Source: an uncultured Anaerolineae bacterium (GTDB lineage: Bacteria > Chloroflexota > Anaerolineae > Promineifilales > Promineifilaceae). From it: 64,000 nucleotides of DNA. The DNA lies in the NCBI GenBank assembly GCA_937943625.1, contig CALEAD010000006.1, positions 1 through 64,000 of the forward strand, written 5' to 3'. The notes beneath the pieces were generated by a model, which was not told where the DNA came from, did no database searches, and saw only the letters and a program-made list of their open reading frames with translations. A program made the translations under genes and the position numbers. Of the stretch, positions 84 through 43,563 are shown piece by piece (positions within the stretch are counted from its first letter, which is position 1; each line of letters opens with the position of its first letter).

Positions 84-329
84 TTAGTTCATGGCATTGG
101 CCAGCCAGGTCATCACTTCCGATTCCTTAGGGATGCGGCCAGCAGCTACCAGCTTTTCGTTGATGACCAGGCCGGGCGTGGCCAGGATGTTGTAGGCCAT
201 CATTTGCCTATAGTCGGTTATCTTGATGATTTCGGCCTCTACACCCATATTGGCAATGGCGCTCCTGGCAATGGATTCTACTTTGTGGCAGTTGGAACAA
301 CCAGGACCTAAAACTTTGATCGTTAACAT
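84..329 (-). CDS. thioredoxin-like small redox protein
   Basis: 81 aa, N-terminal GPGCSNCHKVE CxxC motif and thioredoxin-like 'ATPGLVINEKLVAAGRIP'. Confidence 0.85.
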   Translation of the reverse strand: MLTIKVLGPGCSNCHKVESIARSAIANMGVEAEIIKITDYRQMMAYNILATPGLVINEKLVAAGRIPKESEVMTWLANAMN

Positions 330-342
330 GTCTCGTTTCCTT

Positions 343-795
343 TTATTCTATGATTTCAATGGTTGGTTCTACAATGATGTCTGATTTCACCGAGTTGGCG
401 ACCAGACTGTACTTTTGCGCCGATTGTAGCCCCTTTTTGATGCGAGCTTCAATCACGGCCGTTTTCTCCCCATTGGCGGCCACGCGAATATGCGGCCAGA
501 GCTTGACCTGGGTGAAAATTTCCGTGCGGTCGAGTTCGATGAGCTTGGTGCCCTCGGCGCGGCATTCGTAGCTTTGCAGGTCCAACTTGTAGCGCTCGGT
601 GGCCCAAATGAACATCATCATCACGCAGGTGTTGACGGCGGCGACGAAGGCATCTTCAGGCGTGAAGACGCCGGGGTGGCCCTGGGCGTCGGGTGGAGCG
701 GAGAAGGGCATTTCTGGCCCGTTGCCCATGATGAGGTGACCCCAGTGTTCCCCTTTCCACTGCACGGTGGTGTGGTAAACGGCCGTTCTGCTCAT
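343..795 (-). CDS. OsmC family protein
   Basis: OsmC-like 'PEDAFVAAVNTCVMMMF'; ATG at 795 overlaps the upstream TGA (ATGA). Confidence 0.8.
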   Translation of the reverse strand: MSRTAVYHTTVQWKGEHWGHLIMGNGPEMPFSAPPDAQGHPGVFTPEDAFVAAVNTCVMMMFIWATERYKLDLQSYECRAEGTKLIELDRTEIFTQVKLWPHIRVAANGEKTAVIEARIKKGLQSAQKYSLVANSVKSDIIVEPTIEIIE

Positions 796-1529
796 GCCGC
801 CACTCCCTCCGCACAAAACAGGGCATATTCCTGTGCCAGCACTTCCTGGTACTGGCTCTCCATGGCGTCGGGCACGTCGTTGTAAATTTTGACTTGCGCC
901 AGCAGCTCAGCGGCTGTTTCCGGCGACGGCCGTTTGCCCATCTGCTTAAACTGCGCCAATAGCGGCGGCAGGGCAATCAGCGTCACCTGCTGGCCGTTGA
1001 CCTGCACCGTCTGGACGGGAATGCCGGAACCGCAGGCGCAAGAGGCGGCTGATTTTGCTACTGCCTCTTCTTGCATAACCGGTTCGCTTTCCAGGAAGCG
1101 TCCTTCGCGGCGACTCCACTTTTTATCCAGCAGGGTATCTACCAGGTCGGCGACGGTAGCGGCCGTTTCCGCCACCGCCTGCTGCCCCGCCTCATTCAAG
1201 CGGCGCAAGCCCGCCACCGGGCCAATGCCGCGTTCGGCGACAATGTCCGTGACCACCACGCTGGCAGCCGGTTTGCCAGAATACTGCTCGGTGGCGCGGG
1301 CAGCGCAGCGCAGCGCGCACCCATCCACGGCAATGGTGGGATAGAAGCGGGCAAACGCGCGGTCCCCTTCGCCACCGGCCAAAAAGAGCGGCAGACAAAT
1401 GGTCACCGTCTCATTGGGGCGCAATTCTTCCAACACTTTCAATGCGGCCAGGCGCGTCACCGTGCCTTCAGCCATTTCTTCACCGGAACAGGCGACAATG
1501 CCGACTTTCTTTTGCGGTAAGTTTGGCAT
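792..1529 (-). CDS. DGC-domain putative zinc-binding protein with extra C-terminal region
   Basis: VACSGEEMAEGTV and VDGCALRCA motifs; Cys-rich SCACGSG followed by a C-terminal extension. Confidence 0.75.
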   Translation of the reverse strand: MPNLPQKKVGIVACSGEEMAEGTVTRLAALKVLEELRPNETVTICLPLFLAGGEGDRAFARFYPTIAVDGCALRCAARATEQYSGKPAASVVVTDIVAERGIGPVAGLRRLNEAGQQAVAETAATVADLVDTLLDKKWSRREGRFLESEPVMQEEAVAKSAASCACGSGIPVQTVQVNGQQVTLIALPPLLAQFKQMGKRPSPETAAELLAQVKIYNDVPDAMESQYQEVLAQEYALFCAEGVAA

Positions 1530-1550
1530 AATTTCATCCTCTGCAAAGAT

Positions 1551-1994
1551 TTAGAAACAGGGCGCGGAGCTTCTTAATTTCTCATCTCCCGTCTCCACTT
1601 TCCCATTCAATTTATCTACCACTGCAGCCACTTCCTCAGCCAGGGCGTGGGCCAACTGCTGCCCGCCTTCATTCAACTCGGCGATACCTTGTGGCTTTAG
1701 CTTGCGGTTGCGGCGGAACACGTCCAACACGGCAAAGTCTTGCGCTATGGTACCGCCGCTTTCCTGCACCATTTTGGTGGCGCAGGCCAGTTTACAGCCA
1801 TCAATGGTAATGGCCGGACTGGCGGCGACGGCGGCACGGGCGTTTTCTTCGCCCAGCACCAGCATGGAGAGGGGCACAAGCTGTGCGGATTCAGGACGCA
1901 GCTCTTCAATGACTTCGTAGGCAGCCTCGCGGCTAACCGTGCCGTAGGTTTTGCCAATACCGCTGCACGGCACAATCACGATTTTTTCATTCAT
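1551..1994 (-). CDS. DGC-domain putative zinc-binding protein
   Basis: VPCSGIGKTYGTV and IDGCKLACA motifs, paralogous to the neighbouring ORF. Confidence 0.8.
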   Translation of the reverse strand: MNEKIVIVPCSGIGKTYGTVSREAAYEVIEELRPESAQLVPLSMLVLGEENARAAVAASPAITIDGCKLACATKMVQESGGTIAQDFAVLDVFRRNRKLKPQGIAELNEGGQQLAHALAEEVAAVVDKLNGKVETGDEKLRSSAPCF

Positions 1995-2440
1995 AGGTTT
2001 TCTGCCTCCTCTTGCGCCTGGACTTTCATGTGCTCAAAGTATACCTCCGGCGTCATCAGATTGGCTTGATCGGCGGCCCAATTGGCTGCGGCGATGACGG
2101 CCAGCCAGCCCTCACCGTATGGGTCCTGGTTGATTACCTCCGCTTCCAGCTCCAGTTTTTCGTTGACCGCAGCAATCGTGCCGCTGACGGGGCAGGGCAA
2201 TTCGACGTCTACTTTGATGGTTTCGATGGTGGCAAATTCGTCGTTGGCAGCAACGGCCGTACCCACATCCTTCACCTCCGCAAAAGCCACATCCCCGTTA
2301 CGCTGCTGGAAAAAGTCTGACACGCCAACGGTCACCTGGTTACCTTCCGCTTTGGCCCAGACCCCTTCGGGGTTATAGAAACGGTCCGTCGCGACTTTGA
2401 AGGTAAATTTATCCAGGGTGTATTCTAAAAATTCGGCCAT
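1991..2440 (-). CDS. gcvH: glycine cleavage system H-like lipoyl protein
   Basis: GcvH-like 'VTVGVSDFFQQRNGDVAFAEV...ETIKVDVELPCPVSG...NQDPYGEGWL'; lipoyl Lys (ETIK) retained; start refined to ATG 2440 with GGAGG upstream. Confidence 0.8.
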   Translation of the reverse strand: MAEFLEYTLDKFTFKVATDRFYNPEGVWAKAEGNQVTVGVSDFFQQRNGDVAFAEVKDVGTAVAANDEFATIETIKVDVELPCPVSGTIAAVNEKLELEAEVINQDPYGEGWLAVIAAANWAADQANLMTPEVYFEHMKVQAQEEAENL

Positions 2441-2478
2441 GTTATGCATCCTCCGGTTTAATCTGTCGGACAAACTAC

Positions 2479-2494
2479 TTCAATGTACATTGAA
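2479..2494. promoter_or_regulatory. TTCAA-N6-TTGAA operator-like palindrome
   Basis: perfect 16-bp palindrome TTCAATGTACATTGAA next to a minus-strand TATAAT (2494-2499). Confidence 0.6.
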
Positions 2495-2524
2495 TTATAG
2501 TTTACTCAATACCTATCCTATTAG

Positions 2525-2536
2525 TGACAAATGTCA
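2525..2536. promoter_or_regulatory. TGAC-N4-GTCA palindrome, possible CRP/FNR-family site
   Basis: TGACAAATGTCA; flanking TAG...TACAA conserved at 32696-32715. Confidence 0.5.
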
Positions 2537-2660
2537 TACAATCCGTGTGATATTTGCCGCGGCCTACCTCTTTCGTGAACCAATAGCGCGGTTGCAAACG
2601 GACTGCATAAATCCATCAGAGTCTTCATGCGTGGGCACATCACTACGCATAAAACCGTAA

Positions 2661-2914: not shown

Positions 2915-3565
2915 TTATCTAGGTTTTGCCGTCATTGAGGGTAGGGTGAAGGAAACGGCCGTTTCCCCCAATGCAAACAGCAGTTCTTCTGGCTCATAAT
3001 AGGTTGGTGCGGCGCAAGCCTGACAAATAAGCTGCCCATTTCGCAACACTTCCCGTTCGTTGATGATCTCCTCGCCACAGATGGCGCAGTTGACCCGCAC
3101 CCCGGCGCGGCTGACAATCTGGCTGACCGGGGTGCTGAGACGCACGGGCTGAATGGTCAGCAGTTCACTGATCGGCATGCGTTGGTACCCAATCAACTGG
3201 GCGTAATAATGCTTTCTCTCTTCCGGGGCGTAGGCGCAGGCTTTTTGGCGGATGTCAAGTTGGAGCGTCAGGCGCACGGCCGTTTCCGTCTTTACATCCA
3301 CAAACGTCGCCCCGGTTTTGCCATAATCCACCACCCGCAGCGTGCGATGGCGCACCGAACAGCCTGTCGCCGCTTCCACACCGCTGGTAAAGCAGCCGTC
3401 CGTTTCCGTAAAAACCAGCAGCCGCTTATCCTTGCGTGGCAGTTCCAGTCCCAATGCGGCCGCGCCGGCCAGACCAATGCGTGCTCCTAACACCTGGCGC
3501 GGGCAGAGATGCTTATGCCAGGAGGAAGAGCGTTCTAAAATCTCTTGTAAATCACTCATTGCCAT
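2915..3565 (-). CDS. FmdE-like family protein with C-terminal zinc ribbon
   Basis: FmdE-like 'WHKHLCPRQVLGARIG...TDGCFTSGVEAATGCSVRHRTL', C-terminal CAICGEE...ICQAC. Confidence 0.8.
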   Translation of the reverse strand: MAMSDLQEILERSSSWHKHLCPRQVLGARIGLAGAAALGLELPRKDKRLLVFTETDGCFTSGVEAATGCSVRHRTLRVVDYGKTGATFVDVKTETAVRLTLQLDIRQKACAYAPEERKHYYAQLIGYQRMPISELLTIQPVRLSTPVSQIVSRAGVRVNCAICGEEIINEREVLRNGQLICQACAAPTYYEPEELLFALGETAVSFTLPSMTAKPR

Positions 3566-3652
3566 AAAAAGATCGGCCGGCTGGCCCTACTTTAAGACCA
3601 GCCGGCGCGAAAATAAGTCACAAATGTTAGCTATGTTACTCCTTCCTGCTGG

Positions 3653-4852
3653 TCACGCTTTTGGTTTTACCGGTAGCCAGCGCAGCCCCAGGCCATATAG
3701 CAGCGCGCCCAGGCCAGCGATGAACGTTACCAATAACCACTCGGCTGTATTGGGCACGTAGTCATAGCGCATCTTGGGATCGACGTAGGACAGCGCCAGC
3801 CCTTCCAGTTCGGGCGTTGCCAGCACAGGAATGACCACATTGAGCGTCACGGCCACAAATGTAATCACGCTCAGGGTGGCGGCCACACCAACCCAGGCAG
3901 GTTTATCGGGCTGATTGAACAAAATCAGAATGGGTACGACGACGCCCAGCAAAATATGAACAATCCAGAAACTCCACCAGAATGGCCCGGTCAGCATCAG
4001 CATCAGCGCCTCGGCGCGGGCCGGGCTGCCCTGATAGAGAAAGGTCAGGCCAATGATGCTGGCAGCGAAGGCGCCGCCCAGCAGCAGCCAGGCTGTCAAC
4101 CGGGCCAGCCGACCTACGACCTGGCGGTATTCGGCCGCTTTCTTGTCTGGCCAAAACAGGACTGCCAGGAGAGCCAGCAAGCCGCTGCCAGCCGCCAGAG
4201 AGGAAATCAGGAACATCAGGGGCAGCGACGAGGTGTTCCACAAAGGCCGGGCGGTAACCACGCCAAAAACAGAACCGCTCACGATAATGAGCGCCAACCC
4301 CATTGGCAGGCTGAGATAGGCCAATCCTTTGAGGATCCGCTCTTTCGGCCCTTCAGCAACTGAGAGCCAGCCCATGACCAGGAGCAATTCAGCCAGCAAC
4401 ACGACCAGGTAAAGGGTGTGCAGCCAGACCATCCAGGTGATCATGGAGCCAAAGTCGGGATAAATGTAGACGTGCCAGAAACGAAGCGGCCGTCCCAGGT
4501 CCAGCAACACGATGAGCAAAGCAGCAAACAAAATCACCAGCCCGGTGAAAAGCACAATGGGCTTCAGCCGGTTCAGAGCTTTAAAACCAACCAGGTAGAC
4601 CAGGGTGGTGAAAACCAGCAAGCTGCCCACTTCCAGCCAGACCAGATAGTCGTAAAAGCCGACCCACAAGCCCCAGGGAACGTAGCTGTTTAACGATGTG
4701 GGGAAAAGCCCGTAGGCCACCCGCTGCCACATGCCCCAGGCGCCTATCAACAGCAGGATGAGACCGGCAATCCACACCAGGTCGGTTGCCTGCCACTTAA
4801 ACGAAGAGCGAGCCGGCGGCGTTTCTTGATTTGATATGGGTAGTTGAGCCAT
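3653..4852 (-). CDS. NrfD/PsrC-family polytopic membrane quinone-interacting subunit
   Basis: 399 aa, many TM segments, 'DLGRPLRFWHVYIYPDFGSMITWMVW'. Confidence 0.8.
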   Translation of the reverse strand: MAQLPISNQETPPARSSFKWQATDLVWIAGLILLLIGAWGMWQRVAYGLFPTSLNSYVPWGLWVGFYDYLVWLEVGSLLVFTTLVYLVGFKALNRLKPIVLFTGLVILFAALLIVLLDLGRPLRFWHVYIYPDFGSMITWMVWLHTLYLVVLLAELLLVMGWLSVAEGPKERILKGLAYLSLPMGLALIIVSGSVFGVVTARPLWNTSSLPLMFLISSLAAGSGLLALLAVLFWPDKKAAEYRQVVGRLARLTAWLLLGGAFAASIIGLTFLYQGSPARAEALMLMLTGPFWWSFWIVHILLGVVVPILILFNQPDKPAWVGVAATLSVITFVAVTLNVVIPVLATPELEGLALSYVDPKMRYDYVPNTAEWLLVTFIAGLGALLYGLGLRWLPVKPKA

Positions 4853-4853
4853 T

Positions 4854-5504
4854 TTAGCCTCCTAAAACACGAGTTTCTAGAATTGTTGCCAACCAGTCCA
4901 GGTCTGCCTGCACGGCCGTTTGCGTAAAACGCGCCAGTCCGGCAAAGAAGGGTTCGTCAGCCGCTTTCGCCATTGCGCCGCAAAACTGTGGCAACCAGGG
5001 CATTACCTGCTGGCGCAAGAAATCATAGCTGGCCGCCAAAGCAGCTGCCCCATTTGCCTCATCGGCCAGAGCCAGTTGGCCCAGGTAGGCTAGAAAACCA
5101 AATTCCAAAGCCAGGTGGTCATCTGGCAGGCGCGTTTCGCCGTCAGGCAACGCTTGCCAGGTCAGGTATTGGCGACGCGCCTCTGTTGCTGATGGTCCCA
5201 TCAACTGCCCACCGTGGAGATAGAACGAGGCGTAAGGAGGCGCCGGCGTACGGCCTGGCCCCTCTAGCAGGCGTGTCATCTCCACGTTGAGCGCTGCCGT
5301 ACGGCCGGTCAGCGACCCGTCTGGGTGACCATTGGCCGGTTTCAGGCCAGCGTGCATCAGCGCCAGGCCGTCGCGCAGCGACGATGTAGGCAGCAGCGTC
5401 AGGGCCATGATCTGCTCCAGCAGGGAATCTGACAACGGGTAGGTATACAGGGCGCGCAGCAGGCTGTAAAGCCCAATGCGTTCAGCCAAATCTTGCTGGT
5501 CCAT
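4854..5504 (-). CDS. TorD/DmsD-family molecular chaperone
   Basis: TorD-like 'PPYASFYLHGGQLMGPSATEARRQY' between Mo subunit and NrfD genes. Confidence 0.75.
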   Translation of the reverse strand: MDQQDLAERIGLYSLLRALYTYPLSDSLLEQIMALTLLPTSSLRDGLALMHAGLKPANGHPDGSLTGRTAALNVEMTRLLEGPGRTPAPPYASFYLHGGQLMGPSATEARRQYLTWQALPDGETRLPDDHLALEFGFLAYLGQLALADEANGAAALAASYDFLRQQVMPWLPQFCGAMAKAADEPFFAGLARFTQTAVQADLDWLATILETRVLGG

Positions 5505-5505
5505 C

Positions 5506-8334
5506 TTACACCTTCTTGACCTTGACGATCATATCGCAATAAACAGGTTGTCCCATGACCGGCGAAAGACCTTCGGGGTCCACAATGGCATTGTGGTTGG
5601 GCGACACGTCGCGGAAATCATACGTCTTGCCCAGACCAGGGCTGAAACGACCGCCGCCGCCCAACGGCACGCGCAATACCCCCGGCATGATCGTTTCCAC
5701 CAGGTTTACCTTGCCGCGCGTGCTGTGACCCAATGGCGTTGACAGTTCCACCAGATCGCCGCTTTGTAACCCCATCCCTTCGCCCTCGCTGCGATTCATC
5801 TGGATGACGCCAATACACCACGTTCCCTTGTCAATACGCACCTGGCGACCAGTCGGCGCCGGTCCATCCGGGCCAATGATAATTTCTTCAACGATCCGCT
5901 CTTCGTTGTATGGCATCCACAGGTCTTCAGTGGGAATACGCCCCAGCCAGTCTACCATTTGTGTGCCGGACATGGCGTGGTGGATACGTCCCGAAACAAC
6001 CAGGAAGGGATACTCATCCTTGTATTGGGCGTAATCAGGATTGGTGTAAGGGTTCCAAATTGTCTCAAACCAATAGAAGCTCTTGGGGAATTTGTCCCAG
6101 CCTAGTTTGCGAATGCTGGGCGGCGCTTCGCCAGCTTCTTCGATAAGCTTGTTGTATTTGGCGTATCGCCCTTTGCGCTGTGTTTCACCGTTGCTTTCCA
6201 TTTCGAAGTCCCAGACGAACTCTACTTTCTTGCTGTCGGTTTGCAGTACGCCGCCATCGTGGAAACGGTACCAGCTCATGGGCCAGACAGCCACGCCGTT
6301 ATGGTCGCGGAACCACTGCGCCGTGACTGGCTCGCCGCGCACCTCTTTCTTTTCGTCATCTACCTCAACCCGGCCAGCCTCCAGGGAATCGGGGGTACCA
6401 ATCAGGCGGTAGTTGACTGGATACTGGGGATAGGGAAGCGGAACGCCGGCGTTGGCCCGCCCTGGAGAAACTTTGAGAGCCTCATTCCAAAAATCTTCTT
6501 CGGTAGGATATTTTTCCCAAAATTCAGCCGGATCAATGTCGGGATCGCCCTTTTCGTGCAGCTTACGCGCCAGAGCTATCATAAAGTCGTACTGGGATTT
6601 AGATTCGTACATCTTATCAATGACGAAGTCGCGCAGGTAAATGAGGGGATGGCTGGGATAGATATCAGCCAGGCTCATCCGTTCCAGATAGCTGCACTCT
6701 GGCAGTACCACATCAGCGTAAAGGCCCGTCTCCAGGAAAGGCGTGTCAATATAGACCACCAGGTCTACAGCGTAATCGTTGCCCTTCTTGGCGGTGAGCG
6801 CATCTACCCAGGTTTGGGTATTAGAGCCGGTAATGACCGGGTTGCCGGTGCGCAGGAAGAAGGCGCGCAGAGGATATTCATGGCCGCGGAACGGTCCATA
6901 GCGGAGCTTAACCCCTTCAATGAAGCGGCGGGGATAATCGCCCACCACGTCATCCCAACCGGCCGGCCAGTCGCCGTACCAGTCCATGTGCAGTTGTTCT
7001 TGCTTGCCGGTTACGTCCACGCCATTGATGCGGCGCGTTACATCACGGCCGTTGAAGAAGCCGCCGCCAGCCCGGCCGCCCTTGCTGCTCTTGACGATCT
7101 CGGTGTCAATTGCGCCGCCGGGCACTTCCATGTTGCCGGTAATAACGTTGAGGGCAGTGCCAATAATGGCCGCCACGTAGCCATTGTAATGGTGGCCGAT
7201 GCCGTTCATGCCCCAAACCCAGGCCGCCGGCTTGGTGATGCCAAAGGTATGGGCCAGTTCGGCGATGGTCTTGGCGTCAATCAAGGTGCGCTGCGCCGCC
7301 CATTCCAGGGTGAAGTAATCCAGGCCGTTGATGGGGTCTTTCTTATTCCACCAGCTTCTAAAGTCCGCCTCAAACTCTTCCCAACCCTGGCTGTACTCCA
7401 GGAACGACCAATCAATGTAGCGGCGGAAGGGATCGTCATCACGGTGGTTTTCCAGGATGTAGCGCAAAACGGCTGCAAACAGATCTGGGTCCGTGCCAGG
7501 ACGAATGGGAATCCATTGGTCGGCTTTCGTGGCCGTGTTGGAGAGGGCGGGGTCAATGACCACAATGCGCGCCCCGGCCAGCTTGGCCTCCACCGTGCCC
7601 CGCGATTCATACACAATGCGGGTGGCGGTAAACGGGTTCCAGCCAGCGTAAACGATGAGCCGGGTGCGATATTTATAACTGTTTTTCAGACTGCCATCTG
7701 GCTGCCGCACCAGCACCGGGCGCATGATGTCCGGCTCGACACGCTTGCCGCCGAACATCAGCTTAGGTCCATGGCGGCGCGGCGTGTCGCATATGGAGCC
7801 ATGTTCCACCGTGTGCGGCGTGCCAAAGGCGCGAAACAGGTAATAGTAGGGGTCGCGGTCGGTCACGTCGCCAGCATCCATGATGACCGACTCTGGTCCA
7901 TGCTCGCGCTTAATTTGTAGCAGTTTATCCGCAATATAGTCCAGGGCTTCGTCCCAGGAGGCGCGGCGGAACTTGCCTTCACCCCGCTCGCCCACGCGAA
8001 TCATGGGGTATTTGATCCGGTTGGCGTTATAGGTCATCTGTAAACCGGACGCCCCTTTGGCGCAGACAACGCCAGAGTTAAGGGGTGCGTGATTATTGCC
8101 ATAAATGGCCGAAGCCACGCCATTTTCCACGCGCACGGCCAGGCCGCACTCGGCCGGGCACATGACGCAGGCAGTGTAAACTGTCTTGCTCTGCAACTGA
8201 TTCCGGGCGTCCTGGGCGCTGATCATCTTGAAGCCGCTGCCCAGCGCACCGTAGGTCGCCAGACCGCCGGCCGTGATGGCCCCCGCCTTGAGGAAATCAC
8301 GCCGCGAGAGGGTAAAATTTGTCTCTTTACTCAT
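5506..8334 (-). CDS. molybdopterin oxidoreductase catalytic subunit (CISM/DMSO reductase superfamily), Tat-exported
   Basis: Tat signal SRRDFLKAGAITAGG; CVMCPAECGLAVRV...CAKG 4Fe-4S motif; GSICDTPRRHG. Confidence 0.9.
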   Translation of the reverse strand: MSKETNFTLSRRDFLKAGAITAGGLATYGALGSGFKMISAQDARNQLQSKTVYTACVMCPAECGLAVRVENGVASAIYGNNHAPLNSGVVCAKGASGLQMTYNANRIKYPMIRVGERGEGKFRRASWDEALDYIADKLLQIKREHGPESVIMDAGDVTDRDPYYYLFRAFGTPHTVEHGSICDTPRRHGPKLMFGGKRVEPDIMRPVLVRQPDGSLKNSYKYRTRLIVYAGWNPFTATRIVYESRGTVEAKLAGARIVVIDPALSNTATKADQWIPIRPGTDPDLFAAVLRYILENHRDDDPFRRYIDWSFLEYSQGWEEFEADFRSWWNKKDPINGLDYFTLEWAAQRTLIDAKTIAELAHTFGITKPAAWVWGMNGIGHHYNGYVAAIIGTALNVITGNMEVPGGAIDTEIVKSSKGGRAGGGFFNGRDVTRRINGVDVTGKQEQLHMDWYGDWPAGWDDVVGDYPRRFIEGVKLRYGPFRGHEYPLRAFFLRTGNPVITGSNTQTWVDALTAKKGNDYAVDLVVYIDTPFLETGLYADVVLPECSYLERMSLADIYPSHPLIYLRDFVIDKMYESKSQYDFMIALARKLHEKGDPDIDPAEFWEKYPTEEDFWNEALKVSPGRANAGVPLPYPQYPVNYRLIGTPDSLEAGRVEVDDEKKEVRGEPVTAQWFRDHNGVAVWPMSWYRFHDGGVLQTDSKKVEFVWDFEMESNGETQRKGRYAKYNKLIEEAGEAPPSIRKLGWDKFPKSFYWFETIWNPYTNPDYAQYKDEYPFLVVSGRIHHAMSGTQMVDWLGRIPTEDLWMPYNEERIVEEIIIGPDGPAPTGRQVRIDKGTWCIGVIQMNRSEGEGMGLQSGDLVELSTPLGHSTRGKVNLVETIMPGVLRVPLGGGGRFSPGLGKTYDFRDVSPNHNAIVDPEGLSPVMGQPVYCDMIVKVKKV

Positions 8335-8345
8335 GGTTATACCTC

Positions 8346-9344
8346 CTAGACGAGATAGAAGACCTTGGGGTCGGTGCCCAACTCTTCTTTAAGCCGCATG
8401 ATGTTTGGCTGGGCGATCAGCTCTGAAACCAGGCTCCTGGGATCATTCATGTCGCCAAAGTACGTGGCCCGCCCCATGCAGCTTAGGACACAGGCCGGCA
8501 GGTCGCCCCGTTCAATGCGGTGGATGCAAAAGTGACATTTGCGCACGTTGCCAATGGGCGATCCACCCCTGTCTCGCAGGTAGTTTTTGCCGTACTCAGG
8601 GGTGGGCAGCAGCTCATAAGGCTGGCGTTCGCCCCCTTCGGAATCGCCATAAAATGTGCCAAAATCGTAATAGCGGGCCGAATAGGGGCAGGCGGTCATG
8701 CAGTAGCGGCAGCCGATGCAGCGATCGTAGTCAATGACGGTGATGCCATCGGCGCGTTTCCAGGTGGCCTTAACCGGGCAAACTGGGGTGCAAGGGGGAT
8801 TGTCACATTGCAGACAGGGGCGGGGTACAAAGCGCCGGGCGACGTTGGGAAACGTGCCCTGGGTTTCGGTCATAACCGGGCGATAGGTGACGCCTGGCGG
8901 CAGTTTGTTTTCGGTGACGCAGGCAATGTTACAGCCACTGCAGCCGGTGCATTTACGCAGGTCAATCACCATACCCCACTTGCGCTGATCCATGGGCTTT
9001 TGTAAGGCTCGCCGCAGGTCATCCATCATGCGCTCTACCGGGTGTTCGCCTTCAATCGCTTCTGGCAGGTTCAGCAGTGGCACCAGGTTACCTGCTTGCG
9101 TCGCTGGCGCGGCGTGAAGCGGTTCGACTTTGCCGGCTACTGCCGGGGCCACCAGCCCAGCAAAAACGGCGCTGGCAAACTTGCCCAGGAAGGAGCGACG
9201 AGAAACCTCATCACCGTGGAGCGCCTCCTTTAATAAATCATCTTCTTGGCTCATAGCAATTTCTCCTCTTAGTCGTTGATCGTGGACAGCCTTGATTTGT
9301 TGCTGCACCTCAACTGGAGTGAAAGGTGTATAGCTTATTGCCAT
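8346..9344 (-). CDS. 4Fe-4S dicluster electron-transfer subunit (PsrB/TtrB-like), Tat-type N-terminus
   Basis: [65 protein letters not shown]. Confidence 0.9.
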
Positions 9345-9501: not shown

Positions 9502-10140
9502 TTAAATCAAGCTGCGCTGCATGGCAAAGCGGGTGAGATCGGCGCGGTTTTCCAGGCTGAGTTTGCGCATGATGTTGGCCCGGTGGAAGTCAACTGTTTT
9601 GACGCTGACAAAAAGGGTTTCGGCCGTTTCCTGATAGGTATACCCTTTGGCCAACAGTACTAGAACTTCGCGCTCTCGCTCTGTCAGGCTGTCGTAAGGG
9701 TCGCGGGGCTGCCCCTGTTCCTGGCGGTGCATATCGTCTAGCAAAACGCTGCTAACGCCTGGGTCCAGATAGGTGCCGCCAGCGTGAACGATGCGAATGG
9801 CGCGAATGAGCGCGTCGTCTGGCGCGCGCTTGAGGACGTAACCAGCCGCCCCCACACGCATGGCCGGCATGACGTACTCACGATTTTCGTGTTGGGTTAG
9901 TATCAGAACGCGTGTATTAGGGCAGGCGTAGACAATTTCGCGCGTGGCGGCCAGACCATCCATGCCTGGAAGACCAATGTCCATCAGGATAACGTCTGGT
10001 TGGTAGGCTTTGGCCTGACGCAGCGCATCCAGGCCATCGGCTGCCTCCGCCACGACCTGCATATCATCTTGAAATTGCAGTAAAGCGCGAATACCGGCGC
10101 GCAATATGGCATGATCGTCAACCAACAAAACGCGAATCAT
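9502..10140 (-). CDS. NarL/LuxR-family response regulator
   Basis: REC domain '[18 protein letters not shown]...[14 protein letters not shown]' plus LuxR HTH '[43 protein letters not shown]'; ATGA overlap with HK. Confidence 0.9.
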
Positions 10141-11981
10141 GATATGTTCCTTAAAGGTAGGACTGCTGTAAGGCAAGCGCCGCCGCCTGGTTTACTCTCC
10201 ACGCGCATCTGGCCGCCTAGCAGAGCAGCTCTTTCTTGCATGCCCAACAAGCCTAATCCTTGCCGCTGGCCATGCCGGTTTAGGGCATCGGGCAGCACAA
10301 AGCCAATGCCATCGTCACATACCATAATCTGTATCTGCTCTGGCGCGAACTGAACGGCAAGGTGCACCTGATGCGCATCGGCGTGGCGGCTGATGTTGGT
10401 GATGGCTTCCTGACCAATACGGAATAAGGCTGTCTCCAGTTCGGCGGGCAGCCGCTGCGCGTCGCCAGATACAGACAGGTTAACCTGGACTCCCTGGGGT
10501 TCAAGGCGCTCCTGCGCGTACCAGCGCAAAGCTGGGATTAAACCCAGATCATCGAGCAAAGACGGCCGTAAATCGTAAATGATCGTTTGCAGCTCTTTAA
10601 CCGTATCGCTGGCCGAGATTTTCAGGCGTTCGATCAGCTCTGGCGCACTCTCCGGCTCCTTTGCTAAAGCAGCGTTCACGGCATTCAGACCAAAAACGAG
10701 GGCGTTCAGGGATTGGCCGGTGGCATCGTGCAGTTCGCGGGCGATGCGCTGCCGTTCATCTTCCTGGGCACGTATTGCCCGCGCCAATAATTCGCCGCGC
10801 AGCTGCTCTTTTTGCTGCAACTCCTGCCAAAGACGGGCATTTTCTGCTTCGCGCACTTTTCGTTCGGTCACATCGCGGGTGAACCAGGCCAGGGCGCGTT
10901 TGCCCTGGTAATCCACCAGGGTGCCAGCCGTCTCCAGGACATATTCCTCGCCGTGCCGGTTAACCAGGACCAGCTCATCGGAAATGGTGGGCATGGTCCT
11001 GGCGCGGATCGTTTGCCAGATGTGACGGGCATTTTCCAGTGAATCGGGATGGAGGATGGTGGCCGCATTAGCGCCGATCAGCTCATCTGGCTGGAAGCCG
11101 GCCAGGCGGGCGAAGGTATCGTTGACAAAGAGAAATTCGCCCTCTTGAGGCCCGTCGTCGCAAATCAAAGCAATACCCTCGCCAACCGCGCTGGCTGCCG
11201 TCAACAAATCCCGGTAACCACTTTCTGAGGTCTGCAATTGTTGAATGGCCTGGGCAATTTCGGCTGCCATCTGGTTGAATGCCAGGGCCAGGTCGCCTAT
11301 TTCGTCGCCGGGTGGCAGGTCAATGCGCTCCTCCAGGCTGCCCTGGCCCAGCCGCTGCACCCGATAAGTCAATTCGGCCAGCGGACGGGTGGCCAGATGA
11401 CTGAAAACGTAGGTGATAACGGCCGCTGCCAGACAGCCAACGGCCGTTAACAAAATAACGATAGTGGTGATCCGCGCCTGTTCCACGGCAATTCTGGCCT
11501 GGCTCACGCCGACGTGAATTTCGGCCGGCAAGCCGTCAAAGGGTTGGTAGACAAAGTGGTGGACCAACCCTTGCTCGGTACGCAACAAAACGCCGGAATC
11601 TGCCAGGGAATTATGCGCTGATAACAGATACGTCAGGTCAGCCGGAAAACCCCCTGGAAAGGTATGTACCACCGGCGTACCTGGCCCAAAGGCAAACGCA
11701 TAAACAATGTCAGGGTTATTGTTTATGGCGCCATCTAGCGTTTCGCGCACCGTGACCAGATTTCCTTCAACCAGAGCGTTGGCCAGGCTCTCGCCCAGGG
11801 CTAAGGTGAGGGCTTCGCCATACCGCACCAGCTCGTTCGTCAGGCTGCGGGACAACACCACGTTCACCGCTACCGTGGTGATCAACCCGGCGGCGATGAC
11901 GATGACCACCATTGCGAGCGTGATTCTACTTGTCAGGCGGCGGGGCAATTTTCGGTCTAGCCAGATCAACCAGGCAGGCAT
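10137..11981 (-). CDS. sensor histidine kinase (TM, HAMP, PAS, HisKA_3, HATPase)
   Basis: HAMP-like '[12 protein letters not shown]', PAS, '[24 protein letters not shown]', 'DDGIGF'; start refined to ATG 11981 (MPAWLIWL). Confidence 0.88.
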
Positions 11982-11982
11982 G

Positions 11983-12924
11983 TTATGGCTCCAGAAGGCC
12001 GACTGTTCGGGCAACGTGGCGCAGCGTTTCGTAATCTTCATCGCTGGCCAGCACAAAGCCCAGGGGCATCTCGGAACGCTCCCATTGGTACAGGGCGGCC
12101 GCATCTCGCCCGGCTGGGTCAAGGGTCAACAAGGCCTGTTGGATGAGCGCTACTGTTTTTTCCGGCACGTCTGGCCCGGCAATGATGCCACTGGCGGGAT
12201 AAAAACCTGAGTAGGCCAACACGCGAACCAGGCCGCGCTGCGCCAACTCCCTGGCCAAGGTATCTTGTAAGGCGCCGGCTTCATAACGGCCGCTGGCCAC
12301 GGCGTTAGCCGCCGCCGTGTGCGAACCGCTAAAGCTGTAGGCGCGCAATTCTTCCAGGGCAACACCTGCCTCCTGCAACATCAAGCGAGGAATCAGGTGA
12401 CCCTGGGTAGAATTGGGCGCGCCGAAAACAAACGTGTGCTGGCGCAAATCGGCGACGTTTTGCAAGGGGCTGTCGGCCGGCACGACAATGGCGGCGCGGT
12501 AAGTGTCGTTGCCGTCGCCGTTACGGCCACGCACCAGAATGCGCGCGCCGCATAAATCATGGGCTTGCAAGTAAGAGACCGTGCCTACAGCGGCCAAGGC
12601 AACGTCGCCGTCGCACAGATCATCCACAATGGTACGGCCGTCGTTGTGCGAAACGTAGACGCTGATCGGCAAGCCAGTTTGGTGCGTCAGCCAATTCGCC
12701 AGAGAAGCGATCTGGCGCACGTCTTCTTTTGGTTCCAGGCGGCGGTCGAAACCAATTTGCCAACCGGCCGCCTGACTTGAGGCAGCTGGATAGAGATCGC
12801 TTTCTATCAGGTTGCCTGCCAGACTGACGCTCAGCGACGGCGCACCAGATTGACAGGCAACCAGCAACAAAAGTAATAGAAACGGCAGCATCAAGCCAGC
12901 CAAACCATTTCTGGGCATTCCCAT
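11983..12924 (-). CDS. PhnD-like phosphate/phosphonate-type periplasmic binding lipoprotein
   Basis: lipobox LLLVACQSG; '[17 protein letters not shown]...[22 protein letters not shown]'; adjacent to HK. Confidence 0.8.
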
Positions 12925-13038
12925 CTTCTGTGGTTTAGCCCTGGGTGATTTACCCAGCACCCCAGGGCGGTAGGAATTACTCACCGATAGACACCAATGC
13001 CCAATTGTATCACGGCCGTACGGGGCGGCAGTTGGCAA

Positions 13039-15885: not shown

Positions 15886-16599
15886 TTAAGCAGGCGCTAC
15901 GGCCGTTTCTGCCCCCTGAGAACTCCGAATCCGTTCCCGCAGCCAATCTGTCCACGCCGCGATACCTTCGCCCGTCTCACACGAGATCGGGAAGAAAGTC
16001 ACGCCGGGATTCAGGATTTCAATGCCCCGGCGGAAGTAGTCTATGTCGAAGTGCACGTAGGGCAGCAAGTCCACCTTGTTTAGAATCAGCGCGTCAATGC
16101 CGCGATAGATGCCAGGATATTTGTACGGCTTGTCGTCCCCTTCCGGCACGCTGGCAATAACCACGTTGAAGTGCGTGCCCAGATTAAAAGCAGCCGGACA
16201 GATAAGGTTGCCAACGTTCTCCACGATCATTAAGTCCAAATCCTCCAGCGGTAACTGGTGGATTGCGCTGGACAGCATTACCGCGTCTAAATGGCACTGG
16301 CCGCCGGTATTGATCTGGATGGCCGGCATCCCGGCGGTAATAATTTTGTCAGCGTCCAGGGTGACAGGGGCGGTGTCCCCTTCCACGACGCCCAGCTGCA
16401 ATTCCGGCCGCAGCGCTGCGATGGTATGCAGGATAAGGCTGGTTTTACCCGCGCCTGGCGCAGCCATGATGTTGATACCCAGGACGTGGTTCTGGTCCAA
16501 GTGGCTGAGGTTGTGCGCCGCCACCATATCGTTGGCGCTCATGATTTGCGCGCCGATACTTATATTTTGGGCATGAGAATGAGAAGGGTTTTCACACAT
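15886..16599 (-). CDS. hypB: HypB-like nickel incorporation GTPase
   Basis: 'INIMAAPGAGKTSLI', 'VEGDTAPVTLDADKI', 'QINTGGQCHLDA', 'IVENVGNLICPA', 'LNKVDLLPY'. Confidence 0.88.
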   Translation of the reverse strand: MCENPSHSHAQNISIGAQIMSANDMVAAHNLSHLDQNHVLGINIMAAPGAGKTSLILHTIAALRPELQLGVVEGDTAPVTLDADKIITAGMPAIQINTGGQCHLDAVMLSSAIHQLPLEDLDLMIVENVGNLICPAAFNLGTHFNVVIASVPEGDDKPYKYPGIYRGIDALILNKVDLLPYVHFDIDYFRRGIEILNPGVTFFPISCETGEGIAAWTDWLRERIRSSQGAETAVAPA

Positions 16600-16927
16600 A
16601 TTGTTTCTCCTGTGAGTTGTTTCTGGGGTGAATGTCGCTTTGCTGCACCCGAATAAATCGGCGCGTGATTTCCTGACAGCATTCGGCTACACATTCCTGG
16701 TTAGCCCGGTAAAACACCCATTTGCCCTCCTGTCGCGTCGTCACCAGATTAGCCTGGCACAATACAGCCAGGTGGTGGGAAATGGTGGGCTGCTGCTGGT
16801 CAAAATGATCACAAAGATCGCTGACGCTCATTTTCCCGCTTTGCAGCAGTTGTAAAATCTGCTGCCGCGTTTCGTCGGCCAGCGCCCGCAGAAAATCGTC
16901 AAAGTCGCAACAGCCGGTCTGGCTCAT
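16592..16927 (-). CDS. Cys-rich ArsR-family HTH regulator
   Basis: 'FLRALADETRQQILQLLQSGKMSVSDLCDHFDQQQPTISHHLAVLCQANLV'; start refined to MSQTGCCDF. Confidence 0.85.
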   Translation of the reverse strand: MSQTGCCDFDDFLRALADETRQQILQLLQSGKMSVSDLCDHFDQQQPTISHHLAVLCQANLVTTRQEGKWVFYRANQECVAECCQEITRRFIRVQQSDIHPRNNSQEKQYV

Positions 16928-17163
16928 GCTAATTTGCCAATGGCCGCGTGCATAGATACACTGACCTGCTGGCGACAACGTGGGCACAGAGCTGCCAGCG
17001 AGAAATGCACCAATTGACGTAACTCTGGCAAGCACGCATCTCGCTGCTGTTCATCCAGGCTTTGTGCCGTAGACAGAACCGTGTCTAGACAGTTACCCAG
17101 CAAAGCCAAAATAGCGCGCTCATTGTATTTTTTGGCTTGCCGGAGGGCTTTCAGGGCGTGCAT
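16924..17163 (-). CDS. small hypothetical protein coupled to ArsR gene
   Basis: 79 aa ORF, 4-bp overlap with the ArsR start. Confidence 0.5.
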   Translation of the reverse strand: MHALKALRQAKKYNERAILALLGNCLDTVLSTAQSLDEQQRDACLPELRQLVHFSLAALCPRCRQQVSVSMHAAIGKLA

Positions 17164-30378: not shown

Positions 30379-31440
30379 CTAGCGAATCACAAAATTGAAC
30401 AGATAGCCGGTAAGCATGATGGCAAAAGCCACAATGGTGACGAACATCACAATCAGCGGCGTTTTGATCACCCGTTTCAAGATGAGCATCTCTGGCAGGC
30501 TGAGCGCAACCACAGACATCATGAAAGCTAACACCGTGCCCAGCGCTGCGCCTTTGCTCACCAGGGCGTGCACAACGGGAATAACGCCGGCAGCATTGGA
30601 GTAAAGAGGTACGCCCAGGATAACGCCGGCAGGAACGGCCCACCAGGAGCCACGCCCCAGGATATCGGCCAGGAAATCTTCGGGCACGTAGCCATGAATG
30701 CCCGCACCTACGGCAATGCCAATGACAACAAAGAGCCACACCTTGCCCACAATTTCCTTTGCACTGCGGCCAGCGTCGCGAATGCGCTCGTCCCAGGTTG
30801 GCTTATAAGTGACGCCTGCTTGCTGTCCGACCTTAATTTGCCAGACAAAATCTTCCACGTAACGCTCTGGCTTGAGCCGACCAATAACCATGCCACCAAT
30901 GATGGCAATCGTCAGGCCGCTAACCAGATACAGCGCAGCAATTTGCCAGCCGAACATGCCAAAAAGCATGGCCAGGGCGACCTCATTAACCACTGGCGTG
31001 GCAATGAGGAAAGAAAAGGTGACACCCAACGGCACGCCGCTTTCCACAAAGCCGATGAACAAGGGTACGGCCGAACAGGAACAAAAAGGGGTTAGGACAC
31101 CTAACCCGGCGGCCAGCACGTTACCCACGCCTTCCCGCTTACCACCCAACGCTGCCCGCGCCTGCTCTGGACTGAAAAAGGAGCGCGCAATGGTGACAAG
31201 GAAAATCATCCCGGTCAGTAGCATCAAGATTTTGGGCACATCGTAAAAGAAGAAGTTAAGTGACTGGCCAAAATGGGATTCCGGCGATAAGCCAATGAGG
31301 CTGTATGTCAGCCAGTCGGCAAAGTTTTGTAGTTGGCCCCAAACCAGCCACCAGAGAATGGCCAGGGCTATGACCAAAGCGGGCAGCTTCCACCCCTGTT
31401 TGGGTTGTGAGACGGTTATCTGCTCAGTTGTTGTAGACAT
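30379..31440 (-). CDS. YraQ/DUF318-type permease
   Basis: 'GLGVLTPFCSCSAVPLFIGFVESGVPLGVTFSFLIATPVVNEVAL'. Confidence 0.88.
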   Translation of the reverse strand: MSTTTEQITVSQPKQGWKLPALVIALAILWWLVWGQLQNFADWLTYSLIGLSPESHFGQSLNFFFYDVPKILMLLTGMIFLVTIARSFFSPEQARAALGGKREGVGNVLAAGLGVLTPFCSCSAVPLFIGFVESGVPLGVTFSFLIATPVVNEVALAMLFGMFGWQIAALYLVSGLTIAIIGGMVIGRLKPERYVEDFVWQIKVGQQAGVTYKPTWDERIRDAGRSAKEIVGKVWLFVVIGIAVGAGIHGYVPEDFLADILGRGSWWAVPAGVILGVPLYSNAAGVIPVVHALVSKGAALGTVLAFMMSVVALSLPEMLILKRVIKTPLIVMFVTIVAFAIMLTGYLFNFVIR

Positions 31441-32195
31441 TATGGTATGCTCCTCGAATAATTTTTGTCACGTTTGACGTCGCTGAGTGCAGCAAATAAA
31501 TCTGTTTCCCATTCATGCCCGTTTACCGATACTTGTGGCCGGGCCAGGCGAAAGAGTTCATGACAGGCCATCTTTTGCGCTTTGCTTTCCGGGTCGCCCT
31601 GGAAGGGCGGGTTCTGGCTCTGGTGCTGCTGCGCGGCGCGCACTTTTTGCACCAGGTAGTTGCCCACGTCAATGAAGGCGACCGGCCCACCAACTGCCTC
31701 CGCCGGCGGCGGGACGCCACAACCTTGCCAGGTAGCCTCTGAAGGGGCGATGTAGTAGAGGCGCAACGGCCGTTCCACTTCCTGTGCGTATTGGTCAAAG
31801 GCAACCGTCACCCAGCGGTGAATGGCCAGGTGGTCAGGATGGCCAGAAATGCCGTCCGGACCAAAGGTGACAACGACATCAGGCGACGATTTGCGCATCA
31901 AAGCTAGCAGGCGAGCCGCACCAACGTTGTCTGGGATGTCGGCCAATGTGCCATCCACATAGTCCAGAAAGGTGAGATACTGCACGCCCAGTTCAGCACA
32001 AGCGCGACGCAGTTCAGCTTCACGCAGTACGGCCGTTTCTGTTGCGCTCTTGCCGGGAATCCCCCGTTCGCCGCGCGTGGCCGTTACCAGATGAATCAGC
32101 TTGCCTTCAGCGACCGCTTTAGCCAGCGTGCCACCCATAGGGAAAGTTTCATCATCGGGGTGGGCCAGGATGGTCATGAGAGTAGGAGGCGTCAT
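31440..32195 (-). CDS. PIG-L family deacetylase
   Basis: 'ILAHPDDETFPMGGTLA', 'GISGHPDHLAIHRWV'; ATGA overlap with ArsR gene. Confidence 0.88.
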   Translation of the reverse strand: MTPPTLMTILAHPDDETFPMGGTLAKAVAEGKLIHLVTATRGERGIPGKSATETAVLREAELRRACAELGVQYLTFLDYVDGTLADIPDNVGAARLLALMRKSSPDVVVTFGPDGISGHPDHLAIHRWVTVAFDQYAQEVERPLRLYYIAPSEATWQGCGVPPPAEAVGGPVAFIDVGNYLVQKVRAAQQHQSQNPPFQGDPESKAQKMACHELFRLARPQVSVNGHEWETDLFAALSDVKRDKNYSRSIP

Positions 32196-32608
32196 ATGGT
32201 TGTGGTCTCCCACACAAAATTTGCCGCCGGATTATTACTACCCTTGGCGGCTACTTCCGGGCCACACAGGCGCGGCTGTAAAGCGGCGCGGTCTGGGTCC
32301 AGAAACGTACTCAGCCATTGATGGATCAAGGCCAACACGACCACATCCACTTGATAGTAAATCCAACGGCCGTCTACAGAGTCACGTCGGTCTTGCACCA
32401 AACCAACCTCACGCAGCACCCGCAAGTGGTGGGAAAGGAGATTAGCGGGCAACCCCAATTCCTCGGTCAACCAGCCACTGCACGATGTCCCACGCAGCAA
32501 GGCAGCAAAAATGCGCAGGCGATTTGGATCAGCCAGTGCCTTGAGGACAGGCACAATGATCTCCGGTATGTCTACGTTATCTGCCATTTCTTTCTGCATA
32601 TCTGCCAC
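32192..32608 (-). CDS. ArsR-family HTH regulator, two cysteines (C43, C115)
   Basis: 'LKALADPNRLRIFAALLRGTSCSGWLTEELGLPANLLSHHLRVLREVGLV'. Confidence 0.88.
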   Translation of the reverse strand: MADMQKEMADNVDIPEIIVPVLKALADPNRLRIFAALLRGTSCSGWLTEELGLPANLLSHHLRVLREVGLVQDRRDSVDGRWIYYQVDVVVLALIHQWLSTFLDPDRAALQPRLCGPEVAAKGSNNPAANFVWETTTI

Positions 32609-32642: not shown

Positions 32643-32658
32643 TTCAACGACCATTGAA
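32643..32658. promoter_or_regulatory. TTCAA-N6-TTGAA operator-like element
   Basis: TTCAACGACCATTGAA upstream of the ArsR gene; same arms as 2479-2494. Confidence 0.6.
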
Positions 32659-32698
32659 TCATTGTCTGAATTTTACTCTGTTACGCAGCCTAAAGTAG

Positions 32699-32710
32699 TG
32701 ACGTTCGTCA
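32699..32710. promoter_or_regulatory. TGAC-N4-GTCA palindrome
   Basis: TGACGTTCGTCA within conserved TAGTGAC....GTCATACAA. Confidence 0.5.
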
Positions 32711-32737
32711 TACAAAGAGGTGAAATATGTAATAAAA

Positions 32738-32753
32738 TTCAATGGGGGTTGAA
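32738..32753. promoter_or_regulatory. third TTCAA-N6-TTGAA element
   Basis: TTCAATGGGGGTTGAA. Confidence 0.5.
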
Positions 32754-32806
32754 ATATTTGGGTATAATACGGCGAAGCTACCAACTGGAAATCAGCGTCT
32801 GCCGTG

Positions 32807-32830
32807 AAAAAGGCGCTCGAGCGCCTTTTT
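32807..32830. terminator. bidirectional intrinsic terminator
   Basis: perfect 24-bp palindrome AAAAAGGCGCTCGAGCGCCTTTTT. Confidence 0.8.
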
Positions 32831-32919
32831 GTGCCAGCATGTGAATTTCAGCGGTCGGCGGTCCGCCGTCAACGGCCATTTTTCGAGAAGAGGGAAGCTG
32901 TATGGGGCCAGCGTTTTTC

Positions 32920-42653: not shown

Positions 42654-43376
42654 TTAAAAATTCTCGTGGCGAATTCCATTCATAGGGGATTCCTGTTGCA
42701 ACATCGCCAAAAGCTCGGCGGCAACGGTTTCAATGTGCTGGCGCATGGCGCGCTCAGCCCCCTGGGCGTCTCTGGCAGCCAGGGCGTGGAGGATAGCGGC
42801 GTGTTCTTGTTGATCGGTGGCATCGCGGGAGGGCAGTGTGGCAACGGCCGTTTGCACAAAATTACCCCACAGCATCGTCGGAAAAGCCGACCAGAGCTGG
42901 CTCAGCGTGCGGATCAGGTACGGCCGGCGGCTGGCACGAAAAATCAGCTCGTGAAATTGGCGATTAAGCTGGCGATACTCACCAACCTGTTCTGGCAAGC
43001 GGCACTGCGCCATCTGTTCATGAATCTGCCAGAGGGCTGCCAGCTCATCTGGGCGAATGCTAAGCGCCGCTCTGGCCGCTGCCTGTCCTTCCAAAAAGCT
43101 GCGGTGCGCGTACAAATCCACCACGTCTTCAGGCGAGATATTGACCACACGCACGCCACGGTAGGGAATGTGCTCCACCAACCCCTCGGCGACTAACCTT
43201 TTCAGCGCCTCACGCACGGGCATCTGGCTTACGCCCAGGTCTTGGGCAATGTGCTGCTGGCGCAACCAGGTGCCAGGGCGATAGTCACCCTGCAAAATAG
43301 CGGCGCGAATTCGTTCCGAAACCCACGCATTTAGCTGACGATGAGAAGAAGGAGGGTCTTCTTTGGCGCGCATCAT
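42654..43376 (-). CDS. GntR-family (FadR-type) transcriptional regulator
   Basis: 'LRQQHIAQDLGVSQMPVREALKRLVAEGLVEHIPYRGVRVVNI'. Confidence 0.92.
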   Translation of the reverse strand: MMRAKEDPPSSHRQLNAWVSERIRAAILQGDYRPGTWLRQQHIAQDLGVSQMPVREALKRLVAEGLVEHIPYRGVRVVNISPEDVVDLYAHRSFLEGQAAARAALSIRPDELAALWQIHEQMAQCRLPEQVGEYRQLNRQFHELIFRASRRPYLIRTLSQLWSAFPTMLWGNFVQTAVATLPSRDATDQQEHAAILHALAARDAQGAERAMRQHIETVAAELLAMLQQESPMNGIRHENF

Positions 43377-43563
43377 GGTTGCAAAGAAAACAAAAGGTCA
43401 ATCGGGAGTGGTGATAATTGTCAGGTGTATCCGCCCTGATGCTTGCTCAGAACCCCAAAACCCGCAAGTGAAAAGTTGGATATTATATCTAATCCCAGGC
43501 GGTTAAGTGCAGCATAACACGAAGTAAGAAGTGCGTCAAGAAATTTGTCGTTCTGGCGCTCTA

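Follow-up and report, generated by a model that had tools for sequence, protein, structure and literature searches.

A predicted ArsR-repressed, activator-dependent promoter type shared by two operons in an Anaerolineae family

Two operons far apart in the 64-kb stretch of DNA analysed here (the window) are preceded by promoters assembled from the same pair of inverted repeats, and this composite promoter recurs with fixed internal distances in relatives of the genome. That the boxes exist, occupy fixed positions, are conserved and are linked to an arsR gene is a result of computation, and from sequence we infer binding, repression and activation as well as the activator's family and the inducer. 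The full model, wherein the promoters of the two operons (P1 and P2) depend on an activator and are under the control of one ArsR/SmtB-type repressor, appears fairly probable to us. What emerges is a predicted new regulon built from known parts in a new arrangement: a repressor–activator switch that belongs to a known general type and had not previously been described here.

Two operons and their promoters

Operon 1 (84-2473, minus strand) starts with a gene for a gcvH-like lipoyl carrier protein (1991-2473), which reaches 106.6 bits with PF01597 (cut-off 22.2) and 91.3 with the GcvH equivalog TIGR00527, below the cut-off of 115.85. Profile matches identify the remaining minus-strand genes as encoding two DGC proteins (1551-1994 and 792-1529), an OsmC protein (343-816) and a small thioredoxin_3 of the ArsE/MTH895 type (84-329). 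Operon 2, likewise on the minus strand, is headed by arsR (32192-32608), encoding an ArsR/SmtB-family regulator that is predicted to be autoregulated and to be the likely repressor of both operons. Next come a PIG-L/BshB-like deacetylase gene (31440-32213, profile match) and that of an ArsP_1-family permease (30379-31440; PF03773), which scored 133.7 bits with the SaoE model NF040736, short of the cut-off of 325; a TauE transporter and other genes follow further on.

At P1, a single operator (TTCAATGTACATTGAA, 2479-2494, minus strand) overlaps the gcvH promoter around its start site and −10 element, a minus-strand TATAAT (2494-2499) at 37 bp from the start of the TGAC box. This putative activator box (TGACATTTGTCA on the minus strand, 2525-2536) is centred at about −42/−43, and a degenerate second box (TGATATTTGCCG on the plus strand, 2548-2559), with 5 of 8 consensus bases, lies ~22–23 bp upstream of it; activator boxes were left without an assigned strand at both promoters. 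P2 has its proximal operator (TTCAATGGTCGTTGAA on the minus strand, 32643-32658) downstream of a −10-like element, TAAAAT (32670-32675, minus strand), which is 35 bp from the start of the putative TGAC box (TGACGAACGTCA on the minus strand, 32699-32710). Above that box, at 22 bp, stands a degenerate second one (TTACATATTTCA on the minus strand, 32721-32732), followed by a distal operator upstream of arsR (TTCAACCCCCATTGAA on the minus strand, 32738-32753), 95 bp from the proximal operator. The two promoters have outer bases in common (TTGTATGAC...GTCACTA). Beside the distal operator, the plus strand (32763-32831) carries a TATAAT and, ~40 bp on, a perfect palindrome, rich in G+C, that ends in TTTTT (AAAAAGGCGCTCGAGCGCCTTTTT), possibly a short transcript or the neighbouring gene's terminator; taking this TATAAT as a divergent promoter was rejected for want of a supported −35. 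Rfam holds no known RNA element for the window.

A sequence-only reading of this DNA had reported four of these boxes upstream of the two operons, the TATAAT at 2494-2499 and box spacings of 44 bp (P1) and 54 bp (P2), all of which we recover. It lacked the distal operator, the TAAAAT of P2 and the degenerate second TGAC boxes. Its reading of the 10-bp difference as about one helical turn is too simple, the operator offsets in relatives being 41–42, 45–46 and 52–58 bp; the two spacings differ because P1 and P2 are different promoter designs.

The boxes are rare, and in the window they are more frequent than in shuffled sequence, a comparison that this reading had proposed. The window contains three exact TTCAAN6TTGAA, with 0.02 expected from base composition, and five sites when one mismatch is allowed (shuffle mean 1.56, maximum 4). 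For the 20-base pattern TAGTGAC-N4-GTCATACAA, a search tolerating up to three mismatches returned only two window sites, neither of them with a mismatch; shuffled sequence gave a mean of 0.18. Genome-wide counts likewise come from pattern searches: across 4.09 Mb in 89 contigs, TTCAAN6TTGAA matches 10 times and its reversed control 0 times, and the form conserved in relatives, TTCAAYN4RTTGAA, occurs three times in the 4.09-Mb genome, always in P1 or P2 (0.35 expected).

A conserved promoter anatomy

The genome's family consists of Anaerolineae-like Chloroflexota, with Ardenticatenaceae and Anaerolineae assemblies among the relatives. Conservation in related genomes had been named beforehand as a test of the motif pair, and the composite promoter indeed stands before orthologous genes there. 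The two-part pattern of TTCAA box and TGAC box was found in 13 of 52 family genomes (one control match altogether). Pairs of TTCAAN6TTGAA, for which a spacing of 82–112 bp was allowed, occur in 10 of the 52, all at 95–98 bp, and the reversed-pattern control gave 0 matches in each of the 52. A class-wide search of 396 genomes brought two more operator pairs with TGAC boxes, from another family (G256 and G317); an 84-bp pair in G245, devoid of TGAC boxes and known genes, was taken as chance. The composite promoter is represented by 32 distinct promoters, which are mostly from one Anaerolineae family and not independent, and the first genes behind them are homologues of arsR, trx3, gcvH, PIG-L, ArsP and TauE. 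In G256, the arsR promoter (L161) contains three TTCAAN6TTGAA boxes, at positions 1501, 1600 and 1661. Long tandem arrays of the 7-base GTGACGA lie directly upstream of gcvH in two relatives (L107 and L108, in G034 and G022, respectively).

For the anatomy, 34 distinct promoters were gathered automatically from all fetched loci after removal of near-identical sequences, with the weaker L098 and L160 added to this set by hand; curation, which took out two that were only the reverse or distal side of a site and re-oriented one, left 32. A −10-like hexamer, defined by at least 4 of 6 matches, starts 35–37 bp from the first base of the TGAC box in 32/32 curated promoters and at exactly 36 bp in 26 of them. 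Before curation, 94% of the 34 had such a hexamer at 35–37 bp, compared to 20% in 500 shuffles (maximum 41%), a result somewhat favoured by the orientation of mirrored sites having been chosen partly by −10 score; the chosen orientation agrees with the known downstream gene in 31 of 32 promoters. No TTGACA was present at 16–18 bp, the place of a −35 hexamer, in the 32 curated promoters. Class II CRP/FNR promoters have their activator box near −42, at a constant distance from the −10 element and without a −35 hexamer. The TGAC box likewise replaces a −35 element, and the constant distance of the −10 element puts it at about −42, where a class II activator would bind, in keeping with the earlier placement near −41 to −44. 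What sets the present promoters apart is an additional putative ArsR operator at or just past the start site, often with a second above the upper activator box.

Half-sites of the TGAC box are ~90% identical between promoters and their spacers 28%; a second TGAC box, often degenerate, lies 22–23 bp upstream of the first. With its flanks, the operator consensus reads TAATTCAAYnnnnRTTGAA(T)TA. P1 and nine other promoters follow a one-operator design, the operator starting 41–42 bp from the TGAC box and covering the −10 element and start. Twenty of the 32 have two operators, the second being 41–45 bp upstream of the TGAC box and 3–6 bp from the upper TGAC box. Their proximal operator, in P2 and most others of this design, begins 45–58 bp from the TGAC box, downstream of the −10 element; L237 is an exception, with two operators and a short proximal offset. 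For L219 and L229, with offsets of 45 and 56 bp, an upper operator was not detected.

Candidate repressor and activator

Which protein would bind the TTCAA boxes? The ArsR protein encoded at 32192-32608 scores above the curated cut-offs of its family (PF01022, 40.8 bits, cut-off 22; NF033788, 72.9, cut-off 55), and its predicted fold matches CzrA, SmtB and ArsR. Inverted-repeat operators lie near the start of its own gene (32643-32658 and 32738-32753) and are conserved upstream of orthologues. Of 35 family genomes searched for the ArsR protein, 15 have a close orthologue, nine of these together with the operator pair, and the pair is absent from all 20 others (Fisher p = 7e-5). TTCAAN6TTGAA is also found directly upstream of more distant arsR genes (L080, L084 and L087, of other families, plus L083), and a few genomes, e.g. 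G022, carry boxes and no close ArsR orthologue. The proposal that ArsR acts on the TTCAA boxes is well supported, since the box precedes arsR and orthologous arsR genes and the pair is confined, among these 35 genomes, to those with an ArsR orthologue; the repressor is likely this ArsR or a close paralogue. A second ArsR-family gene (16592-17035, minus strand), followed by CobW and two GcvP-like genes, might encode a further TTCAA-box binder; no TTCAA box was found at its start.

An alignment of 13 ArsR orthologues shows two invariant cysteines, C43 and C115. The predicted model places C43 at the beginning of helix 3, and C115 is C-terminal, in CGPE. ArsR proteins of the As(III) type have a CxC pair in helix 3; in the present protein and its closest orthologues the second position of this pair is Gly (SCSG), and more distant homologues carry SCNC. 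BigR/SqrR-type proteins have their first cysteine elsewhere, as opposed to the helix 3 start seen here (SC[NS][GC] motif), and the BigR equivalog model gave 36.6 bits against a cut-off of 155. With these cysteines conserved, the inducer may be a thiophilic metalloid or reactive sulfur.

The ArsR/SmtB repressors SmtB, AzuR and ZiaR have operators near the start site, and one or two operators per promoter are known in the family (PMC8790569). The present system resembles them in family, as judged by curated cut-offs and fold, and in inverted-repeat operators that overlap the promoter. It differs in its core, TTCAAYnnnnRTTGAA as compared to their published 12-2-12 TGAACA-type repeats (PMC8790569), in the fixed spacing to an activator site and in the gcvH, DGC, OsmC and thioredoxin genes predicted to be controlled. 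Sulfane-sulfur sensors are also known among ArsR-type repressors: sHdrR and SoxR of Hyphomicrobium denitrificans are examples that have two conserved cysteines and regulate genes of sulfur oxidation; a single intergenic region contains two binding sites of SoxR, and the controlled genes are associated with a lipoate-binding protein and TauE (PMC10451225, PMC12423496). Two conserved cysteines, two operators, a lipoyl protein and TauE are thus shared with our system; sHdr genes were not recognised among the annotated genes between the two operons.

The TGAC box reaches beyond these operons. The genome contains 13 matches to TGACRWWYGTCA (reversed control, 0), and the motif is enriched in 35 of 35 family genomes (561 summed matches versus 71 in controls), unlike in the majority of the class's other families. 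Counting the two window sites, 11 of the 13 are outside annotated-looking genes, disregarding a 90-aa mechanical ORF at C32. Sites occur near genes for PPDK, PEPCK, a NapC-type cytochrome and a nitroreductase, and a related sequence, TGACTTTTGTCA, near that for PFOR. Of 12 other TGAC sites, seven have a −10-like hexamer at 35–37 bp, where ~2 would be expected, and six of these point to the neighbouring gene. Family-wide enrichment and the −10 elements at other sites lead us to predict that the TGAC box serves a global activator. In the window, a minus-strand gene for a GntR-type regulator (42654-43376) is preceded at ~47 bp by a TGAC-like box, TGATAATTGTCA (43412-43423). Elsewhere in the genome (L137; G000 C17, near 44.5 kb), a GntR-type regulator has a large palindrome at its start, TTTGTCATACAACCATACAGTATGACAAA, which is probably that regulator's own operator.

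The activator of this box is probably CRP/FNR-like. HcpR, of the CRP/FNR family, has the predicted motif wyTTGACnnnnGTCAArw, and its E181 has been linked to A6 of the site, the A of TGA (PMC1274295). Compared to these predicted HcpR sites (TTGAC-N4-GTCAA), the TGAC-N4-GTCA core, the dyad geometry and the redox or anaerobic targets are alike; the outer base differs, being A/G here and T in HcpR, no HcpR orthologue is tied to the box, and the candidates lack E181. Specifically, the intact CRP/FNR candidates (L132, L133 and L135) have R-V, L-Y or I-Y at positions 180/181. Looking for the activator through autoregulation was of no avail, with no TGAC box upstream of the CRP/FNR genes here or of most homologues, and neither was looking through presence, as close L133/L135-type proteins exist in most, not all, family genomes whereas the TGAC box is enriched in all. 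In two relatives (L193 and L194; G022/G034), tandem TGAC boxes stand close to a CRP gene with R180/E181, whose counterpart in the present genome, L134 (G000 C4, near 51.9 kb), is apparently truncated; next to L134, a reading of the reverse strand is similar to the Rrf2-like gene of L194. Of the class II CRP/FNR-like activator proposed earlier, the geometry is strongly supported and the family is plausible, with the core equal to that of the HcpR motif, while no gene could be tied to it.

A predicted switch and its meaning

In the model, a dimer of ArsR, or of a close paralogue, would bind TAATTCAAYnnnnRTTGAATTA. At P1, in front of the gcvH operon, a single operator would cover the −10 element and start site; at P2, the promoter of ArsR's own operon, one operator would lie just past the start and the second upstream, adjoining the activator sites. 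RNA polymerase would need an activator, probably CRP/FNR-like, on TGAC-N4-GTCA at about −42 in place of a −35 hexamer, often assisted by a second activator box 22–23 bp further up. ArsR on the proximal operator would block polymerase, and ArsR on the distal operator, 3–6 bp from the upper TGAC box, would probably block or compete with the activator, the role that we infer for this site being activator occlusion. Release of ArsR from DNA through C43 and C115, by a thiophilic metalloid or reactive sulfur, together with an activator in its active state, would allow both operons to be expressed. More tentatively, and with doubts that slightly outweigh our confidence, we entertain a logic specific to Anaerolineae, which would combine a family-wide redox activator of new TGAC-N4-GTCA specificity with an upstream ArsR operator that blocks it. 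If true, a single promoter would have its polymerase as well as its activator stopped by one small repressor.

Operators at a distance of ~nine helical turns could, alternatively, be bridged, with ArsR dimers closing the promoter and the activator sites within a repression loop. Fifteen of the 20 two-operator spacings are 95–100 bp and one is 101 bp, close to nine turns, and a distal operator serving a divergent gene, an explanation that we rejected, fails in 13 of 20 promoters, where upstream ORFs run in the same direction. However, the total spacing ranges from 82 to 101 bp over the 20 promoters, and the distal operator is fixed with respect to the TGAC box (41–45 bp, sd 1.2) while the proximal one varies (41–58 bp, sd 4.6). 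The small spread of the former distance indicates that the activator box, and not the other operator, sets the position of the distal operator. The two distances fail to compensate for each other (r = −0.08; variance of the sum 22.0, summed variances 22.9), which disfavours looping; ArsR dimers are moreover small, and our search of the open full-text literature returned no paper on looping by ArsR/SmtB repressors. We therefore consider a loop improbable. Still harder to credit is that the boxes of P1 and P2 are mere copies of a recently duplicated promoter that share no regulation. Both promoters do lie in one 64-kb window with outer bases in common, yet their spacers are unrelated, the half-sites are kept across many genera and before different first genes, and the −10 distance is fixed; this reading can practically be dismissed.

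A more serious alternative concerns the identity of the activator. Between the two operons, a NarL/LuxR response regulator, a PAS histidine kinase and a PhnD-like binding protein are encoded in a row (9502-13038, minus strand), which we take to resemble three-part tetrathionate/thiosulfate sensing systems; a molybdopterin oxidoreductase/NrfD cluster (2915-9344) adjoins them. A NarL/LuxR response regulator, e.g. that at 9502-10176, might occupy the TGAC box instead of a CRP/FNR protein, and the location of this three-gene sensor system as well as the common occurrence of tandem TGAC boxes at 22–24 bp would fit. Yet the motif is family-wide (PFOR, PEPCK, nitroreductase), wider than the expected reach of one local system, TGAC-N4-GTCA fits the geometry described for CRP/FNR motifs (PMC1274295), and the exact TGAC box was not found upstream of the system's own operon. 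We hence deem a response regulator unlikely, albeit worth keeping in mind, and prefer a CRP/FNR-like activator.

What does the switch mean for these bacteria? No paper on this operator sequence was found in the open literature, and the ArsR-subfamily operator plus the family-wide activator motif provide a testable regulon for almost uncultured organisms. It links an operon for a lipoyl carrier, DGC, OsmC and thioredoxin proteins to one for ArsR, PIG-L and ArsP, and this shared control suggests that these poorly understood proteins jointly deal with reactive sulfur or a thiophilic metalloid. The motif itself can be used to find more members of the regulon and to seek the activator.
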